Positions 2,674 to 62,891 of a DNA stretch of 64,000 nt are shown piece after piece. The notes under the pieces are model-generated. The model saw nothing but the letters and a program-made list of their open reading frames with translations. It searched no databases and had not been told where the DNA came from. The stretch comes from Bacteroidota bacterium (GTDB lineage: Bacteria; Bacteroidota; Bacteroidia; JACCXN01), in the NCBI GenBank assembly GCA_013696965.1, contig JACCXN010000091.1:124001-188000 (forward strand). The letters run 5' to 3'. The position numbers were made by a program, and so were the translations under genes. Every line of letters begins with the position of its first letter. Position 1 is the first letter of the stretch.

Positions 2674-3923
2674 AAGAACAAAGTGGAAATAGTGCAACCT
2701 TTAAAGGTTTGGACATTGAAAAAACACGTAAGGATTTTCCAATTCTATCCACTTTGGTTAATGGCAAACCTCTGGTTTATCTTGACAATGCAGCAACGTC
2801 ACAAAAGCCTCAACAGGTTATAGATGTAATTACAAACTATTATACTAAACAAAACAGTAACATTCACAGGGGTGTTCACTATTTAAGCCAGTGCGCAACC
2901 GAAGCCTTTGAAGATTCCCGTGAAAAAATTCGTGCTTTTATTAATGCTCCCCAGGCTAAACAGATTATTTTTACAAAAGGCACCACAGATGCTATTAATT
3001 TAATCGCTACAGGTTATGGCAGAAAATTTATAGGAAAAGGTGACCAGGTGATTATTTCAGCAATGGAGCATCATTCAAATATTGTTCCCTGGCAAATGCT
3101 TTGCGAGGAAAAACAGGCTAGTCTTAAAATTATTCCTATCAATGAAAAAGGAGAGATAATTTTTGAAGCGTTTGAAAAGATGCTTAATCCAAAAGTTAAA
3201 TTAATTTCTATTTGCCATGTTTCAAATGCTTTGGGAACTATAAATCCTGTAAAAGAAATTATTCAAAAAGCTCATGAATTTAATATTCCTGTGGTGATTG
3301 ACGGTGCTCAGGCAGTTCATTTCATGAAAGTAGATGTACAGGAACTGGATTGTGATTTCTATGCCTTTTCTGGTCATAAAATGTTTGGCCCTACTGGAAT
3401 TGGAATTTTGTACGGAAAAGAAGCTTTGCTTAATGAAATGAACCCCTACCAAGGCGGAGGAGATATGATAAAAACAGTATCTTTTGAAAAGACTATTTAC
3501 AATGAAATTCCGCATAAATTTGAGGCCGGCACCCCAAACATTGAAGCAGGAATAGCACTTGGAGCAGCTATCGATTATATCAATTCTATTGGCATTGAAA
3601 ACATTCATGCACAGGAGAAAGAATTGCTCGAATATGCCACAAAAAAATTAACTGCAATTGAAGGACTCCAAATAATTGGAAGGGCGAAAGAAAAATCAGG
3701 CGTTATTTCTTTTATTGTAAATGGCCTTCACCCATACGACATTGGAGTGATATTGGACAAATTAGGAATTGCAATACGCACAGGCCATCATTGCACACAA
3801 CCCTTAATGGAACGTTTAAATTTACCTGGAACTGCACGTGCTTCCTTCGCTTTTTACAATACCATAAATGAAGTGGATACGTTAGTTAAAGGAATAGAAA
3901 AAGCAATACAAATGTTAAAATAA
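2670..3923 (+). CDS. sufS: SufS, cysteine desulfurase
   Basis: This PLP-dependent enzyme removes sulfur from cysteine for the SUF pathway and passes it to SufE. The PLP lysine is Lys237 in FSGHKMFGPTG, and the persulfide cysteine is Cys375 in RTGHHCTQPLM, both counted from the TTG at 2670. AMEHHSNIVPW carries the cofactor-stacking histidine. There is no ATG at the 5' end. TTG at 2670 overlaps the sufD stop. A second in-frame TTG at 2709 would begin MDIEKTRKDFPIL, close to where many homologues start, so the true start is uncertain between these two. At 417 residues it is slightly longer than the usual 405-410, which fits the later start somewhat better. Confidence 0.94.
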   Translation: MKEQSGNSATFKGLDIEKTRKDFPILSTLVNGKPLVYLDNAATSQKPQQVIDVITNYYTKQNSNIHRGVHYLSQCATEAFEDSREKIRAFINAPQAKQIIFTKGTTDAINLIATGYGRKFIGKGDQVIISAMEHHSNIVPWQMLCEEKQASLKIIPINEKGEIIFEAFEKMLNPKVKLISICHVSNALGTINPVKEIIQKAHEFNIPVVIDGAQAVHFMKVDVQELDCDFYAFSGHKMFGPTGIGILYGKEALLNEMNPYQGGGDMIKTVSFEKTIYNEIPHKFEAGTPNIEAGIALGAAIDYINSIGIENIHAQEKELLEYATKKLTAIEGLQIIGRAKEKSGVISFIVNGLHPYDIGVILDKLGIAIRTGHHCTQPLMERLNLPGTARASFAFYNTINEVDTLVKGIEKAIQMLK

Positions 3924-3954
3924 GGGGAAGCTTACCCTTTAAAAAGAATTGGAA

Positions 3955-4365
3955 ATGTCTATAAATGAAATACAGCAGGAGATAATTGAGGAGTTTTCCT
4001 TTTTTGAGGATTGGATGGAAAAATATGAACACATTATTGATCTTGGAAAATCCTTACCCTTGATTAAAGATGAATTTAAAACTGAAGAAAGGCTGATAAA
4101 AGGGTGTCAATCCAGGGTATGGCTTCATTCTGAGATGAAAGATGGAAAGCTCGTTTTTTATGCAGATAGTGATGCAATTATTACCAAAGGGTTAATTGGT
4201 TTAATGGTTAGGGTTCTTTCCAATCAAAAACCTGAAGAAATAGTAAATGCAGATTTGTATTTTATTGATAAGATTAATTTAAAAGAACATCTGTCTCCAA
4301 CCCGTTCAAATGGATTGCTTTCAATGGTTAAGCAAATGAAGATGGATGCTCTCGTTAGACAGTAA
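3955..4365 (+). CDS. sufE: SufE, sulfur acceptor for SufS
   Basis: This small cytoplasmic protein takes the persulfide from SufS and hands it to SufB. Starting at the ATG at 3955 gives 136 residues and puts the acceptor cysteine at position 51 (IKGCQSRVW), the same number as in E. coli SufE. A TTG two codons upstream (3949) keeps the frame open, but the ATG is preferred. It follows sufS by about 31 bases in the SUF operon. Confidence 0.94.
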   Translation: MSINEIQQEIIEEFSFFEDWMEKYEHIIDLGKSLPLIKDEFKTEERLIKGCQSRVWLHSEMKDGKLVFYADSDAIITKGLIGLMVRVLSNQKPEEIVNADLYFIDKINLKEHLSPTRSNGLLSMVKQMKMDALVRQ

Positions 4366-4411
4366 ATAAACAAGTTTATAGGTCTTAAAACCTACTTATT
4401 GAAGAAACAAA

Positions 4412-4729
4412 ATGATTACAGATAGGAAACAATTAGAAAAAATGATTATTGAGGCCATAAAAACAGTTTATGACCCGGAAATTCCTGTTGATGTTTATGA
4501 ACTTGGTTTAATCTACGAAATCAATATCAATGACGAGGCCAATGTGGATATTAAAATGACGCTCACTTCTCCTTCTTGCCCGGCAGCGGAAGAATTGCCC
4601 GGTGAAGTGGAACTTAAAACCAAACAGGTTCCTGGTGTTACCAATGCAGCAGTTACAATAGTTTTCGATCCGCCCTGGGAAAAAAGCATGATGAGTGAGG
4701 AAGCTCAACTTGAGTTGGGTTTTATGTAA
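4412..4729 (+). CDS. DUF59/MIP18-family Fe-S assembly protein (SufT-like)
   Basis: This 105-residue protein belongs to the DUF59/MIP18 family. It shows the family's opening (VYDPEIPVDVYELGLIYEI) and the conserved cysteine motif (TSPSCPAAEELPGEVE). Family members act as auxiliary factors in Fe-S cluster assembly or delivery, such as SufT in bacteria and CIA2 in eukaryotes; the exact role here is inferred. It lies 46 bases after sufE, and in Bacteroidota it is a standard member of the SUF operon. ATG start. Confidence 0.9.
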   Translation: MITDRKQLEKMIIEAIKTVYDPEIPVDVYELGLIYEININDEANVDIKMTLTSPSCPAAEELPGEVELKTKQVPGVTNAAVTIVFDPPWEKSMMSEEAQLELGFM

Positions 4730-4779: not shown

Positions 4780-5292
4780 ATGGATAAAGAATTGGAAATA
4801 GAAAACAAAGTTGATAAAAGTGGATTAATCACTTTAAACCTTGAGGATTTTTATCCTCAAGGTGATCGCATTTTGTTTGATATTAAAGAATGTCTTTATC
4901 AGGGAATAATTCTAAAGGAGAAAGAATTCAGGGAATTTATTAAAAACCACAATTGGGACAAGTATCAAAACAAATTCGTAGCTATATATTGTTCAGCCGA
5001 TGCAATAGTTCCAACCTGGGCATACATGCTTTTAACCGCTGAATTGGAACCTTTTGCAAGCAAACTTGTTTTTGGTGATTTACACCTTCTTGAAACAGTG
5101 TTGTTCCTGGATGCATTAAAAAACCTTGAAATTCCAAAATATAAAGATGAGCGGGTAATTATAAAAGGTTGTTCCAAATTTCCTGTTCCACCCTCTGCTT
5201 ATGTAGAACTTACCAGGCTTTTGAGGCCTGTTGCAAAAAGTATAATGTTTGGTGAGGCTTGTTCCACTGTACCTATATACAAGAAAAAATAA
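4780..5292 (+). CDS. DUF2480 family protein, last gene of the SUF operon
   Basis: I recognise this 170-residue protein as a DUF2480 member, a family without an established biochemical function that is found mainly in Bacteroidota. It has no signal peptide or membrane segment, so it should be cytoplasmic. Visible features are FYPQGDRILFDIKECLYQG near the N terminus, a VAIYCSADAIVPTWAYMLL segment, and a C-terminal FGEACSTVPI segment. Three cysteines lie at Cys-Ser positions (YCSAD, GCSKF, ACSTV). It sits 50 bases after the DUF59 gene on the same strand and is followed by the convergent corA. Its position suggests a role connected with Fe-S assembly, but this is inference from context only. Confidence 0.85.
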   Translation: MDKELEIENKVDKSGLITLNLEDFYPQGDRILFDIKECLYQGIILKEKEFREFIKNHNWDKYQNKFVAIYCSADAIVPTWAYMLLTAELEPFASKLVFGDLHLLETVLFLDALKNLEIPKYKDERVIIKGCSKFPVPPSAYVELTRLLRPVAKSIMFGEACSTVPIYKKK

Positions 5293-5340
5293 ATTGATAC
5301 ACCTTCACATCTGATTCCTGGCCTTTACCAGAATCTTGAA

Positions 5341-6405
5341 TCACATCCAGTTTTTTCGCTTAAAATAAAGCAATAAAGATAAACCAACAATTATCATAAT
5401 TCCCCACACAGTATAGTACCCATATTCCCAGTCTAATTCAGGCATCACTCTAAAATTCATTCCATATACTCCCACAAGAAAGGTTAGAGGAATAAAAATT
5501 GTGGCAATAATCGTAAGGGTTTTCATAACATCATTCTGGCGGTTGCTTATACTGCTCATATAAATATCCAGTATACTTGATAGCATTTCCCGGTAGGTAT
5601 CAATTGAGTCCATTACCTGAATAGTATGGTCATAAACGTCTTTAATAAATACCCGGGTATGAGCACTAACAATTGTCATGTCATTATTCATAAGGGAATT
5701 TAATACTTCCCTTAAAGGCCAAATGTTTTTTCGAAGCAAAATAAAATCTCTTTTCAGTCTATTTATCTCATACAATAATTCAATAGATGGATCATCTAAA
5801 ACTTTTTCCTCAAGCATTTCAATTTTATTGCCTAATTGTTCCAAAACAAGGTAAAACCGGTCAACTATAACATCCAGCAGAGCATAAGCAAGATAATCAG
5901 TTCCTGACTTTCTGATTTTTCCTTTTCCTGCTTCCAAACGCAATCTTACAGGATCAAATACATCACCTTCAAGTTCCTGAAAAGAAATTATAAATTCCTG
6001 ATTGAAAATAATACTTACCTGTTCATGGATAACCTCGTCTTTAATCGTATCAAAATTAATCATATTTAACACTAAAAAGAGGTAGTTTTCGCCCTCTTCC
6101 AACTTTGGTCTCTGACCTAAATGAAGAATATCTTCAACAAACAAAGGATGAATTTTATAGGAAGAACAAATTTGGTCTACAATGGAAGTATTAAGGCCAT
6201 TGATATTGATCCAAACAGAACCTTTTTTACTGCTTAGTAATTTTTCAAGATCTGATGGATTTACCAATTCCTTTTTTTCAAGAATGTCTTCCCCATAACA
6301 ATAGGCAGAAATGGAATAGTTTTCAGAAGAAGTTGTAATATGGTCGATAGAACCAGGTGAAAGCCCGATTCTTTTACGGTTATACCTGCGTGTGAATTTA
6401 GCCAT
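5341..6405 (-). CDS. corA: CorA-type magnesium/cobalt transporter
   Basis: This 354-residue inner-membrane divalent cation channel has a large cytoplasmic N-terminal domain with long helices, followed by two transmembrane helices at the C terminus. The signature GMN tripeptide is at about residues 316-318 (VGVYGMNF) in the loop after the first helix, and the protein ends with the basic tail KRKNWM. Length is normal for the family. The gene converges with the SUF operon, and about 217 bases separate its start from the end of nadD. Mg2+ is the usual substrate; Co2+ or Ni2+ transport cannot be excluded. Confidence 0.95.
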   Translation of the reverse strand: MAKFTRRYNRKRIGLSPGSIDHITTSSENYSISAYCYGEDILEKKELVNPSDLEKLLSSKKGSVWININGLNTSIVDQICSSYKIHPLFVEDILHLGQRPKLEEGENYLFLVLNMINFDTIKDEVIHEQVSIIFNQEFIISFQELEGDVFDPVRLRLEAGKGKIRKSGTDYLAYALLDVIVDRFYLVLEQLGNKIEMLEEKVLDDPSIELLYEINRLKRDFILLRKNIWPLREVLNSLMNNDMTIVSAHTRVFIKDVYDHTIQVMDSIDTYREMLSSILDIYMSSISNRQNDVMKTLTIIATIFIPLTFLVGVYGMNFRVMPELDWEYGYYTVWGIMIIVGLSLLLYFKRKNWM

Positions 6406-6622
6406 GGCCTAAAGTTATTAAATTATGAGTACAAAGAATTGTTTAACAGAAATCAAGGTTTTTACCTCATAAAATTCAAAGTAAATGCTTGTAGGAATTG
6501 ATTTAATTGCATCTTCTCAAATAAATGAAGAGAGTTAAAGTGTAAAGGCTAACTCTGTGGCTATAATAAGCCCAATTTATAGGGGTTTATTTACCTGTAG
6601 AAAATTAACCAAAGGGTTAAAA

Positions 6623-7198
6623 TTATTTTTTATAAAAATTCATTTCATCTATGTAATGCCGGGCAGGTTCGGGTATCATATACCTTACATCTTTTTTATT
6701 TTTAATTGCTGCACGTATGAAACTTGAAGATAATTCAATTAAGGGTGCCTCAATGAGATGGATTTTTTTATGATCCTTCAAAGTGCTTTCGTTGGGTTCT
6801 ACTCGTGGATAAACGTAAAGTTCACATTGCTGGAGAATTTGCTCGTAATTCTTCCATTTGTGGAAATTAACAAGGTTATCAGTTCCAACAATAAGAGCGA
6901 AATCATTTTTAGGATATTTTTCATTTAAATAAGTAAGAGTATCAATCGTATAAGAAGGCTGAGGAAGCTTAAATTCTATGTCACTAGCCTTGAGTTTAGG
7001 ATTGTCTCCAATTGCCAGCCTCACCATTTCCAATCGATGATGCTCATCCAACAATGTTTTTTTTATTTTAAGGGGATTGTGAGGAGAAACAACAAACCAA
7101 ACTTGTTTTAGGTCAGTATATTCAGCCATGTAATTTGCAAGGATCATATGCCCCACATGCACAGGATTAAAAGAACCAAAAAACAAACCTATTTTCAA
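6623..7198 (-). CDS. nadD: Nicotinate-nucleotide adenylyltransferase NadD
   Basis: This enzyme adenylates nicotinate mononucleotide to deamido-NAD in NAD synthesis. It is 191 residues, the usual length. The nucleotidyltransferase motif is at the N terminus (GSFNPVHVGHM), and the second nucleotide-binding motif is near the C terminus (SSSFIRAAIKNKKDVRYMIP). The start is 5 bases after the stop of the upstream M42 peptidase gene, so the two are probably co-transcribed. A short inverted repeat just beyond the stop (TTAACC/GGTTAA at 6606-6620) has no strong U tract and is not called as a terminator. Confidence 0.95.
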   Translation of the reverse strand: MKIGLFFGSFNPVHVGHMILANYMAEYTDLKQVWFVVSPHNPLKIKKTLLDEHHRLEMVRLAIGDNPKLKASDIEFKLPQPSYTIDTLTYLNEKYPKNDFALIVGTDNLVNFHKWKNYEQILQQCELYVYPRVEPNESTLKDHKKIHLIEAPLIELSSSFIRAAIKNKKDVRYMIPEPARHYIDEMNFYKK

Positions 7199-59492: not shown

Positions 59493-60416
59493 TTAATTAC
59501 GATTTTCAATATCATTAATTAAGGGTGAATTATTTTCCCTGTAATTTTTCAAATGATTTTTGAGTTGAATAATGTTTTCATTCATCATTTCTATCTGTTG
59601 TTCAATAAGTACAAGCTCACCATGAGTTTGTTGATTTGCATTTGCTTCTCTGCGAAGTTTATCGTTTAAATCTTTTTTAAGTTCTTCTTTCATATCATCC
59701 ATCCCTCCTATTATTACACCAATAAATAAATTAATTACCACCATTGCCCCTGTAATAATAAATGAAACAAAATAAATTGCAGATGCTACCGGCATTGCGT
59801 TTGGGGCAGTACACGGTATATGTGATCCATCATAACCATAATTATCGCAACCATACATGTTAATATACATTAAATCAGTCCAATCTTCAAGAGTAACAGC
59901 CCTAAACAAAGAAAGCATTGACATTTGTAAATTTCTAAAATGTATAGGATCGTTATCGGCAAATAAAAAGGTCCCCATAACACCATAAATGTAAAAATGA
60001 ATAAGCAAAAGAAGAGCTATATATCCCATGGAAGGGATACTTTTCAATAAACTTCCAACTATGGTCTGTAATTTAGGAAGGGCAGTAACAAGTTTAAAGG
60101 CTCTTAATATACGCGCGAGTCTTAAAACAGCTACATAAGCTGCATTAACAGGCATAAAGCAAACCGCCACTATTACAAAATCAAATACATTCCAAGGATC
60201 TGTGAAATAAAGCCATGGTTTTTTTCCATAGGAACCTATTTTTATTACCGCTTCTCCCACAAAAATCCAGAGAATAAGTTGATCGATGATGTGAAGCAGG
60301 ATACCGTATTCCTCAGCAATTCCCTTATAGGTTTCAATACCAACAACAATACCAGCAATAACAATTACAATAATAATAAATGCATTAAAAACCTTTGAGT
60401 CAGCTATAGTTTTCAT
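59493..60416 (-). CDS. Single-repeat voltage-gated cation channel (ion_trans family)
   Basis: This 307-residue membrane protein has six transmembrane segments of the bacterial Nav/Cav type. The S4 segment carries Arg99, Arg102, Arg105 and Lys108 at every third position (LRLARILRAFKLV). The pore loop has the filter TLEDWTD at residues 175-181. S6 is at about 213-238. A coiled coil of about 240-295 would hold the tetramer together. An unusually long segment between filter and S6 contains Cys190 and Cys202. NaChBac and NavAb have TLESW; the extra acidic residues here resemble calcium-selective engineered variants. Ion selectivity is inferred, not shown. Confidence 0.9.
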   Translation of the reverse strand: MKTIADSKVFNAFIIIVIVIAGIVVGIETYKGIAEEYGILLHIIDQLILWIFVGEAVIKIGSYGKKPWLYFTDPWNVFDFVIVAVCFMPVNAAYVAVLRLARILRAFKLVTALPKLQTIVGSLLKSIPSMGYIALLLLIHFYIYGVMGTFLFADNDPIHFRNLQMSMLSLFRAVTLEDWTDLMYINMYGCDNYGYDGSHIPCTAPNAMPVASAIYFVSFIITGAMVVINLFIGVIIGGMDDMKEELKKDLNDKLRREANANQQTHGELVLIEQQIEMMNENIIQLKNHLKNYRENNSPLINDIENRN

Positions 60417-60524: not shown

Positions 60525-60995
60525 TTAAACCAGATGAATTTCTTTTTTGTCATCTGGATCAAGATCTACTCCTTTTACATCGGCAATTGCTTTAATAAAA
60601 TAACGTGATTTTTCATTATCGGCAAAAGAAGCCATTTTTCCTAAAGCTCCGAGTGCTCCTCCTTTTTCTTTAAGGCTATCATTATTTGATTTAATTGTAT
60701 TGTAAGGTAGGTCAAAAGAAATTTCTATTGAATCACCCGGTTTAATTTCAAACGCCTGGTTTTTAACAAGACTGCCTAATTCAAATTCCTTAGTTTGCTT
60801 ATTATCTCCACGTCCTGTAACATACTCTTCAATTAGTATAACCTGAAAGGACTGAATTGTTTTTTCACTTTTTGTACTAAAGTTAATTTTTCCATTTATT
60901 ACTCCATCCGTTTTAGGATGCTGAGGAGATAACTGAAGCATAATTTTTACACCGCCAATACCCAATGTGTCTTTTATTTTTGAAAAGAAACTCAT
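60525..60995 (-). CDS. Spo0M-like (arrestin-fold) protein
   Basis: This 156-residue cytoplasmic protein resembles the N-terminal arrestin-like domain of the Spo0M family: IKDTLGIGGVKIMLQL, GVINGKINFSTKSEKTIQSFQVILIEE, and FEIKPGDSIEISFDLPY. The second half of typical Spo0M is missing or short. The family name comes from sporulation in Bacillus, but the organism is not expected to sporulate, so the role is unknown. It lies between the channel and ClC genes on the same strand and has its own promoter. Confidence 0.7.
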   Translation of the reverse strand: MSFFSKIKDTLGIGGVKIMLQLSPQHPKTDGVINGKINFSTKSEKTIQSFQVILIEEYVTGRGDNKQTKEFELGSLVKNQAFEIKPGDSIEISFDLPYNTIKSNNDSLKEKGGALGALGKMASFADNEKSRYFIKAIADVKGVDLDPDDKKEIHLV

Positions 60996-61118: not shown

Positions 61119-62891
61119 TTATTCGTGAGAAAATTCAACAAGTACGTTTCTGTAGGCAGAAAACATTTTGGATTTGGAAATAAAGCCTTGGTATTTCCCC
61201 TGTTCAAGCACGGGCAAATTCCATGCACCTGTTTCAGTAAAAACATCCATTACATTTTCCATGGAATCAGTTATGCACAAATGAGCGGGAGCTATGCTCA
61301 TAATATCATCCACAACAATGGTTTGATATTGTTCCGGATCAAACATAATGTCACGAATGTCATCTAGCATAACTATACCAAGAAAATGGTTCTCTTTATT
61401 TACCACTGGAAAAATATTTCGCTTTGAACGTGCTATCACTTTAATCAGTTCCCCTAAGGTATCTTCAGGATTCACACTTTCAAAGTCATTTTCAATAACT
61501 TCTTTAATTTTCATGAGTGTGAGTACGGCTTTATCCTTGTGGTGAGTGATTAACTGTCCTTTCTCGGCCAATCGTTTAGTGTAGATTGAATGTGGCTCAA
61601 AAAACCTGGCTGTAACAAGGGAAACTCCTGATGTTATCATCAAAGGAACAATTAGCTGATAGCCTCCGGAAAGCTCTGCAATTAAAAACAATGCCATAAG
61701 GGGAGCATGTAAAATTCCGGCAATTAATCCGGCCATTCCTGCAAGGGTAAAATTAGTTTCAGAAATAGTAAATGGAAGGTTCATCATATTAATAACCCGC
61801 GCCACTAAAAAACCTGAAATTCCACCCATTAAAAGCGATGGTGCAAATATCCCCCCTGCTCCTCCACTCCCAATGGTAAGTGCAGTTGCAAAGGGTTTAA
61901 AAAGGATTGCCAGAAATAGAAAAGCAACAAGAATATAATTGTTTTCTCTTTGGCTAAAAACAAAACTATGTTCAAGTAATTTTCCCGGAGCCTGCGAGAG
62001 CAAAGAAGAAATACTATCATAACCTTCACCAAACAAGGGAGGAAGAAGAAAAATAGCTAAGCCAAGAAATATTCCTCCAAAAACTGCTCTTATATAATCA
62101 TTCTGGATTAGCTTTATTTTTTTCTCCACGAACATTTCAGTTCTGGTGAAATAAACTGAAATTAAGCCGCAAAGCAAACCAAGTAGTATAAAAAAAGGAA
62201 CATCACTGGAAACAAAAGCATCCTGTATTTTAAAATTAAACAAAAGCTCCTCTGCGAAAAACAGTTTAGCAGTTACAGTACCTGTAATTGAAGCCATTAA
62301 AAGTGGTATGAGCGATGCTAGTGTGAGATCAAGCATAAGGACTTCCAGGGCAAATACAAGGGCGGCAATTGGAGTGTTGAAAATGGCAGCAATAGCTCCT
62401 GTTGCGCCACATCCAATCAACAATAAAATATGCTTGTACTCAAGTTTGAAAAGCCTGCCAATATTTGAACCAATGGCAGAACCTGCAGAAACAATAGATG
62501 CTTCAAGACCAACAGAGCCACCAAAACCAACTGTAAAAGCACTTCCGATTACGGGAGAATACATTTTATGCCGTTTTAAAAATCCTTTTCGCCTTGAAAT
62601 GGAAAATAAAATACTGCTTATTCCATGACCAGCTTTTTCTTTAATGAAAAATTTAAAGAAAAAAACTGTAAGTAAAATTCCTATAAAAGGAAGGGCAAAA
62701 AACAAGTAATTCTCATTGGCATCTTCGTAATTTTTTACAATTTTTTCACGAATATAATGGGTAAGCGTCTTTAATATTACTGCAGCAATACCGGCACAAA
62801 AGCCAATTAAAACACTTAGAATTAATACAAAGGCCTTATTGCTAACATGGAGGTTACGCCATTTGAGGAATCTTAAAAGAAGGGGTTTCAT
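61119..62891 (-). CDS. ClC-family chloride channel/transporter with CBS domains
   Basis: This 590-residue protein has the ClC membrane core (about 20-445) followed by a cytoplasmic pair of CBS domains (about 460-585). The selectivity regions are recognisable but altered: GHGIS (88-92) in place of GSGIP, GLEAS (128-132) in place of GREGP with the gating Glu130 kept, and the third motif GGIFAPSLLMGG intact. Alignment of FNTPIAALVFALEV with the E. coli protein puts Glu183 opposite Glu202 and Val184 opposite the inner proton Glu203. The anion-coordinating tyrosine is retained in HSIYTKRLAEKG. Whether it is a channel or an antiporter is therefore open. Confidence 0.9.
   Translation of the reverse strand: MKPLLLRFLKWRNLHVSNKAFVLILSVLIGFCAGIAAVILKTLTHYIREKIVKNYEDANENYLFFALPFIGILLTVFFFKFFIKEKAGHGISSILFSISRRKGFLKRHKMYSPVIGSAFTVGFGGSVGLEASIVSAGSAIGSNIGRLFKLEYKHILLLIGCGATGAIAAIFNTPIAALVFALEVLMLDLTLASLIPLLMASITGTVTAKLFFAEELLFNFKIQDAFVSSDVPFFILLGLLCGLISVYFTRTEMFVEKKIKLIQNDYIRAVFGGIFLGLAIFLLPPLFGEGYDSISSLLSQAPGKLLEHSFVFSQRENNYILVAFLFLAILFKPFATALTIGSGGAGGIFAPSLLMGGISGFLVARVINMMNLPFTISETNFTLAGMAGLIAGILHAPLMALFLIAELSGGYQLIVPLMITSGVSLVTARFFEPHSIYTKRLAEKGQLITHHKDKAVLTLMKIKEVIENDFESVNPEDTLGELIKVIARSKRNIFPVVNKENHFLGIVMLDDIRDIMFDPEQYQTIVVDDIMSIAPAHLCITDSMENVMDVFTETGAWNLPVLEQGKYQGFISKSKMFSAYRNVLVEFSHE

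Follow-up and report, generated by a model that had tools for sequence, protein, structure and literature searches.

In the E. coli antiporter ClC-ec1 (ClcA), Ser107 and Tyr445 bind the central-site chloride and make up the inner gate; transport is uncoupled by Ser107/Tyr445 mutations, perhaps through damage to that gate (PMC12873427). The same source describes Lys131 as a buried residue that stabilises the central-site chloride, the K131A/M mutants transporting very slowly with coupling largely kept. Glu202 organises water in the inner proton path (PMC3519907), and Glu113 is the hydrogen-bonding partner of the inner glutamate, Glu203 (PMC7253180). Protonation at Glu203 is described as absolutely required in ClC-ec1, with exceptions among homologues (PMC3519907), mutations there severely repress H+ transport (PMC12873427), and the residue greatly accelerates H+ transport (PMC7253180, PMC12873427). 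In the E203A mutant Cl--driven H+ pumping persists with a somewhat degraded stoichiometry, E203Q pumps H+ with a strongly degraded one (Cl-/H+ ~75), and double mutants that also lack Glu113 still pump H+ (PMC7253180). The same paper cites homologues whose H+ pumping needs no titratable residue at the inner site (Feng 2010, Phillips 2012, Stockbridge 2012), CLC-ck2 being one for which PMC3519907 is a second citing source. Glu_in is further stated not to be required for the mechanism, several antiporters having no titratable residue there (PMC12873427), and to be seemingly non-essential in some cases (PMC6019066). Homologues without it have been classed as channels (PMC6909576), and Val occupies the inner site of ClC channels (PMC3519907, PMC5362633).

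We analysed a ClC gene on the minus strand at 61119..62891 of a 64,000-nucleotide stretch of a Bacteroidota contig, hereafter the window. The gene has an ATG start and encodes an anion transporter of 590 aa with a transmembrane domain and a C-terminal CBS region. Residues 72–429 match Pfam Voltage_CLC (E 1.1e-74; 252.2 bits against a cut-off of 24.8, profile positions 2–346 of 346), which places the protein in the CLC superfamily, and this gene gave the sole Voltage_CLC match detected in the source genome assembly. The CBS region follows the membrane domain from residue 462 and extends to residue 580 (61152..61508, minus strand), with Pfam CBS at 462–516 and NCBIfam CBS-protein matches reaching about residue 587. 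An AlphaFold model computed from 42 sequences (the window protein and 41 of the 80 close homologue loci described below) had a mean pLDDT of 87.4, and its superposition on ClC-ec1 (1OTS; Z 47.3, rmsd 3.1, 413 residues) establishes the CLC fold. The residue register rests on sequence alignments because the 1OTS superposition output gives the fold and outer ranges and no residue pairs. With E. coli ClcA as the reference, a phmmer alignment to PDB chains and several MAFFT alignments all agreed on that register. The best PDB sequence match of the window ClC was 3EJZ, titled an E203V mutant of ClC-ec1.

Both the phmmer and MAFFT alignments paired His89 with Ser107, Glu130 with Glu148, Val184 with Glu203, Phe349 with Phe357, and Tyr437 with Tyr445 (all positions that follow are on the minus strand). 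GSGIP of ClC-ec1 corresponds to GHGIS (residues 88–92; 62616..62630, codons checked), and GREGP to GLEAS (residues 128–132; 62496..62510), so the outer gating glutamate typical of the CLC superfamily is kept as Glu130. Val184 (62340..62342) occupies the inner glutamate position. A sequence-only reading of this DNA had placed His at the central serine, a retained outer Glu, and Val at the inner site on the basis of a 41-residue spacing between His89 and Glu130; spacing and placements all stand, with His89 and Val184 aligned to the central and inner sites. Two key substitutions come in addition to those listed there, Glu113 to Leu95 (62607..62609) and Lys131 to Pro113 (62553..62555). Retained positions include Glu183, the counterpart of Glu202 (62343..62345), Phe349 within GGIFAP (residues 346–351; 61839..61856), and Tyr437, the counterpart of Tyr445 of the central site and inner gate (61581..61583). 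The protein thus resembles ClcA/CLC-ec1 in its fold (Z 47) and in its equivalents of the outer Glu, Glu202, Phe357, and Tyr445, whereas Ser107, Glu203, Glu113, and Lys131 are all replaced and a CBS region is added. The central Ser and Glu203, by which the ClcA/CLC-ec1 type is recognized, are here His89 and Val184.

Close homologues were collected by scanning genome contigs with a six-sequence alignment, a broader one having proved too variable along its whole length for the purpose, and the best 80 of 587 relatives were retained. They share 45–53% identity with the window ClC and are nearly all labelled Bacteroidota. Together with a Bacteroides finegoldii "Chloride channel protein" (L209), they have a similar length and the same pattern of His, outer Glu, Val or Ile, Phe, and Tyr. 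The Ser107 site was His in 79 of the 80 and Arg in one, and the outer Glu, Val/Ile at the inner Glu, Glu202, and Phe357 were each found in 80/80, with Tyr445 in 78 and Phe in the other two; a smaller alignment of the same homologues gave Phe357 in 79/80 and Tyr445 in 77/80. Two positions differ and are, within this set, peculiar to the window ClC. Its Ser132 stands where the GREGP motif ends in Pro in 78/80 close homologues and in Thr in 2/80, and its Pro113 stands at the Lys131 place, which is Ser in 71/80, Arg in 7, Gln in 1, and His in 1.

To extend the comparison we searched 247 Bacteroidota genomes with Voltage_CLC and found matches in at least 146. One set comprised the 30 best phylum scorers, one per genome (L032–L061), in which the Ser107 site was His in 28, Glu in 1, and Ser in 1. 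A second set of 60 further matches (L144–L203), hand-picked for spread over rank, genome, and protein length and therefore not random, with weak matches under-sampled among the matches listed, had His in 28, Lys in 8, Arg in 7, Ser in 4, Thr in 3, Glu in 2, Pro in 1, and 7 CLC-F-like rows. The outer Glu was retained in 30/30 top-scoring and 58/60 hand-picked loci. The canonical Ser/Glu combination occurred in 1/30 and 4/60 matches, respectively, and all 5 Ser rows in the two sets carried Glu at the inner site. Across 195 relatives (194 loci and E. coli ClcB; L115 and L192 are identical), 7 had both Ser and Glu, 186 had neither, none were mixed, and 2 were gapped (L018, a fragment, and L029, a CBS-only protein). 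The nearest-locus set contributed 24 of its 29 non-self loci to this tally, L023, L024, L026, L030, and L031 being left out as short or low-scoring. Glu202 was retained in 193/195 relatives, with the remaining 2 rows gapped. In eukaryotic channels the Ser/Glu pairing is broken. We also examined six plasmid proteins of named hosts, picked from the 15 best of 324 matching records, and five were His/aliphatic, with Ile in Frondihabitans, Leu in Streptomyces, Paraburkholderia, and Rhizobium, and Val in Bacteroides; the sixth, from Azospirillum, had Lys with Leu. We therefore rejected the idea that the His/Val combination is unusual, given 79/80 His and 80/80 Val/Ile among close homologues and a state common in the Bacteroidota sample and plasmid proteins. 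As the replacement is usual among relatives, His89 and Val184 are a family trait and not an oddity of this gene, and by residue comparison the window ClC is of a His/aliphatic type that is already widespread.

A quick tree search of 109 of the 197 rows, with the trait columns kept in, placed the 8 Ser/Glu rows, including ClcA, on one side of a single branch (support 94). The Ser/Glu pairing is therefore a single event, one clade split, and gives no independent proof of functional linkage. The window ClC fell inside a 57-row clade (support 100) with His in 31 rows, Lys/Arg/Glu in 22, and Thr/Pro in 4, and its nearest relative, L003, at 66% identity, carries His and Val. In the non-Ser part of the tree the Ser107 site is variable, with changes between His, Lys, Arg, Glu, Thr, and Pro. 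From this placement, the residues at issue were most likely inherited and did not arise in the window gene. Judged by sequence, the window ClC is unremarkable within a large bacterial ClC subfamily defined by inheritance, whose traits on the same grounds are a His or other ionisable residue at the central Ser, an aliphatic residue at the inner Glu, the outer Glu, and the CBS region. Another clade in the alignment (L020, L025, L146, L154–L157, L165, L169, L172, L174, L176, L199) has His at 107 and Leu/Met at Glu203, with Met (once Leu) at Tyr445 and Leu/Met at Phe357, which leaves hardly any of the canonical side chains of the central site.

Among named systems, E. coli ClcB is like the window ClC in having His at the Ser107 place, the outer Glu, an inner Val, and Tyr at 445, and thus differs from ClcA at 2 of 4 literature-named key residues (Ser107, Glu203). 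In contrast to the window ClC, it has 418 aa with no room for a CBS region, a spacing of about 40 (by eye) rather than 41, and a very long branch. The spacing and branch make the His/Val alignment of ClcB less sure, and ClcB probably shares the His/aliphatic state. The window protein fell below the NCBIfam cut-offs for ClcB and ClcB-like proteins (NF002437, 111.3 against 425 bits; NF002505, 236.6 against 482 bits). CLC-ck2 of Citrobacter koseri, the Phillips 2012 protein, reportedly has non-polar Ile at the inner Glu site, keeps the outer Glu, and works as a Cl-/H+ antiporter. CLC-F (6D0J) shares the fold (Z 44.5), the outer Glu, and an aliphatic residue at the Glu203 place (six CLC-F-like rows; among CLC-F-like rows L186 was compared with 6D0J, and motif and tree position served to assign the rest). 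It differs at the Ser site, which is Met, and in its GGEVTP stretch; the window ClC has His89 and GGIFAP at these places. Marks of CLC-F proteins are the Glu of GGEVTP and, at the Ser107 site, either Met, as in 6D0J, or Asn, and the window ClC has neither mark; by our own count that Glu is the extra CLC-F residue E318, chain index and paper numbering being three apart. Fluoride riboswitches near CLC-F genes are common and not obligatory, and in the window every Rfam family stayed below its gathering score. With His89, GGIFAP, and no RNA family detected in the window, we rejected an identity as a CLC-F fluoride exchanger.

We consider the window ClC most likely to be an H+-coupled exchanger of chloride-like anions with a His-based inner gate, a reading we hold with somewhat more confidence than doubt, because the equivalents of Glu148, Glu202, Phe357, and Tyr445 are all kept. 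Under this reading Glu130 would pick up a proton on the outside and move back and forth between the proton path and the anion sites; Glu183 would organise the water wires that carry the proton on to the cytosol, with no titratable inner glutamate. The roles of Ser/Tyr in the inner gate and at the central anion site would fall to His89 and Tyr437, chloride would be the presumed substrate, and the CBS region may regulate transport. The additional loss of Lys131 and Glu113 counts against this reading.

The sequence-only reading took the residue mix to suggest altered anion preference or loss of proton coupling. Its account of the residues holds; Val as a sign of lost coupling does not, as E203A still pumps H+ (PMC7253180). 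Likewise, inner Val is indeed found in channels, as it had noted (PMC3519907, PMC5362633), and is not diagnostic of one in the window ClC, since CLC-F-like rows carry Val/Ile too. We rejected Val184 alone as the mark of a channel, given H+ pumping by E203A and an inner Glu that is dispensable in homologues (PMC7253180, PMC3519907, PMC12873427). An altered anion site or inner gate is plausible, because Ser107 and Tyr445 bind Cl-, gate, and uncouple when mutated. By our analysis, the Ser107/Tyr445-type inner gate would be the more doubtful part of coupling in the window ClC than Val184.

In an alternative along the lines of the sequence-only reading, His at the inner gate and Val at the inner site break coupling and the protein is a leaky or uncoupled route for Cl-, resembling a channel or a slow uniporter. 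Because Ser107/Tyr445 changes uncouple ClC-ec1 (PMC12873427), His at the Ser107 site could uncouple the window ClC, and the inner Val of ClC channels (PMC3519907, PMC5362633) points the same way. The outer Glu is missing from two relatives in the 57-row clade, which may therefore include uncoupled members. Yet the equivalents of the outer Glu, Glu202, Phe357, and Tyr445 are kept here and in nearly all 80 close homologues, and coupling is compatible with non-titratable inner sites (PMC7253180). The His/aliphatic state also occurs in other phyla, and most sampled Bacteroidota ClCs would have to be uncoupled. We consequently regard an uncoupled pathway as unlikely, if far from negligible. The two relatives are sister Bacteroidota ClCs, L189 (873–2657) and L197 (930–2717), both His/aliphatic, in which the outer Glu is Leu (GLLGP) and Gln (GLQGP), respectively; they are candidate natural uncoupled ClCs.

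The alignment also raised a question of charge at the central site. The Lys131 site was Lys in 7/7 Ser rows and His (16) or Gln (8) in the 24 Lys/Arg rows. A protonatable residue at 107 may supply the charge that Lys131 supplies elsewhere, which we treat only as a lead, since 59/145 His rows keep Lys or Arg at 131 and the 3 Thr rows carry neither charge (Gln or His at 131). Among 49 hand-picked rows, Ser-type and CLC-F-like rows excluded, the Ser107 site was H, K, R, or E in 45; CLC-F-like rows were left out of this count because MAFFT column 107 is out of register there, two residues ahead of the CLC-F Met79 position. A tentative and rather unlikely extension is a relocation of charge. With the Ser gate, Lys131, Glu113, and Glu203 all lost in this family, the one ionisable side chain at the Ser site (His89 here; in sister groups Lys, Arg, or Glu) would both bind the anion and respond to cytosolic pH by titration, which would make an exchanger with a pH-sensing inner gate and no need of an inner glutamate. 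Counting against this are Thr/Pro in the other 4/49 rows and, again, the His rows that keep Lys or Arg at 131. Separately, the Tyr445 site was acidic in 8/15 rows with Lys/Arg at 107 and in 4/38 others (L144–L203 minus 7 CLC-F-like rows; Fisher test, kinship ignored), and the 8 rows are not independent, as all belong to one clade. The pairing hints at a salt-bridged inner gate in those proteins.

A coupled exchanger whose central-site selectivity has been reset by His89 towards another anion (e.g. nitrate, bicarbonate, or an organic anion) is in our view improbable. Plant nitrate exchangers have Pro at the Ser107 site. The loss of Lys131 would also fit such a change, as would the way in which the Ser107-site residue tracks selectivity, Met in CLC-F being one example (PMC12035849). 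Against it, the CLC-F signature is absent with no RNA family detected in the window, and no identified neighbour gene hints at an anion among those named from 5 flank representatives of the 80 homologue loci. A misalignment or sequencing artefact would be in keeping with Pro113 and Ser132, each present in 0/80 close homologues, and deserves next to no credence, being refuted for His89 and Val184 by separate homologue records with His in 79/80 and Val/Ile in 80/80 and by L003 with His and Val.

The CLC mechanism has largely been built on the Ser/Glu type, a minority among the Bacteroidota ClC genes sampled (4/60 and 1/30). If the His/aliphatic majority is coupled, it offers a natural and abundant test bed for a dispensable inner glutamate and for the requirements of the inner gate; if it is uncoupled, many Bacteroidota ClC genes are misunderstood. 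A rule that no inner Glu means a channel, as in PMC6909576, settles many genes without measurement. In the open-licence literature, which leaves most subscription journals outside, we found no transport assay of any member of the His/aliphatic clade and no naming of the state in titles or abstract openings. A His substitution combined with Glu_in gave no match in the open-licence literature, and neither GHGIP nor GHGVP was present in nine topic-matched open-licence CLC papers. Passages of PMC7274781, PMC6019066, PMC8633789, PMC5503242, and PMC8625536 added nothing on the His/aliphatic state.

Upstream of the window ClC is the end of a dnaG-like primase gene, and a dnaG match was present in 3/80 homologous loci, whose flanks were searched over up to 5 kb and often less. 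The HPPD-like glyoxalase of the window matched in 1/80 homologous flanks (L140), and the Spo0M-like and amidohydrolase genes in 0/80. A Sua5-type ORF was found in the flanks of 23/80 close homologues and an fmt-type ORF in 19/80 (each named from one representative), and Sua5-type and fmt genes lie beside the ClC in Bacteroides finegoldii too. The flank genes named from 5 representatives of the 80 loci were Sua5, fmt, SHMT, a sugar transferase, and a second ClC. Locus L064 has a tandem pair of same-strand ClC genes (3046–4620 and 4992–6764), and up to 14/80 loci have in their flanks an ORF related to the upstream gene of the pair.

Downstream of the ClC and on the same strand are two genes, one Spo0M-like and the other for a one-domain ion channel. 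The Spo0M-like protein (60525–60995, minus strand; 156 aa; Pfam, profile 1–99 of 213) lies between the ClC and the channel gene. We rejected the channel and ClC as a conserved pair, as the channel matched in 0/80 homologous flanks. The channel is a one-domain Ion_trans protein of 307 aa (59493–60416, minus strand) with a filter-like stretch, TLEDWTD, identified by eye. The filter of NavAb is TLESWSM and that of the engineered calcium-selective CavAb is TLDDWSD. When PDB matches were ranked by summed repeats, four-repeat T-type calcium and sodium channels came top, and the best one-domain match was 4BGN, a 298-residue voltage-gated sodium channel (179 bits). Going by its filter-like stretch, Ca2+ permeability of the window channel would be worth a test.
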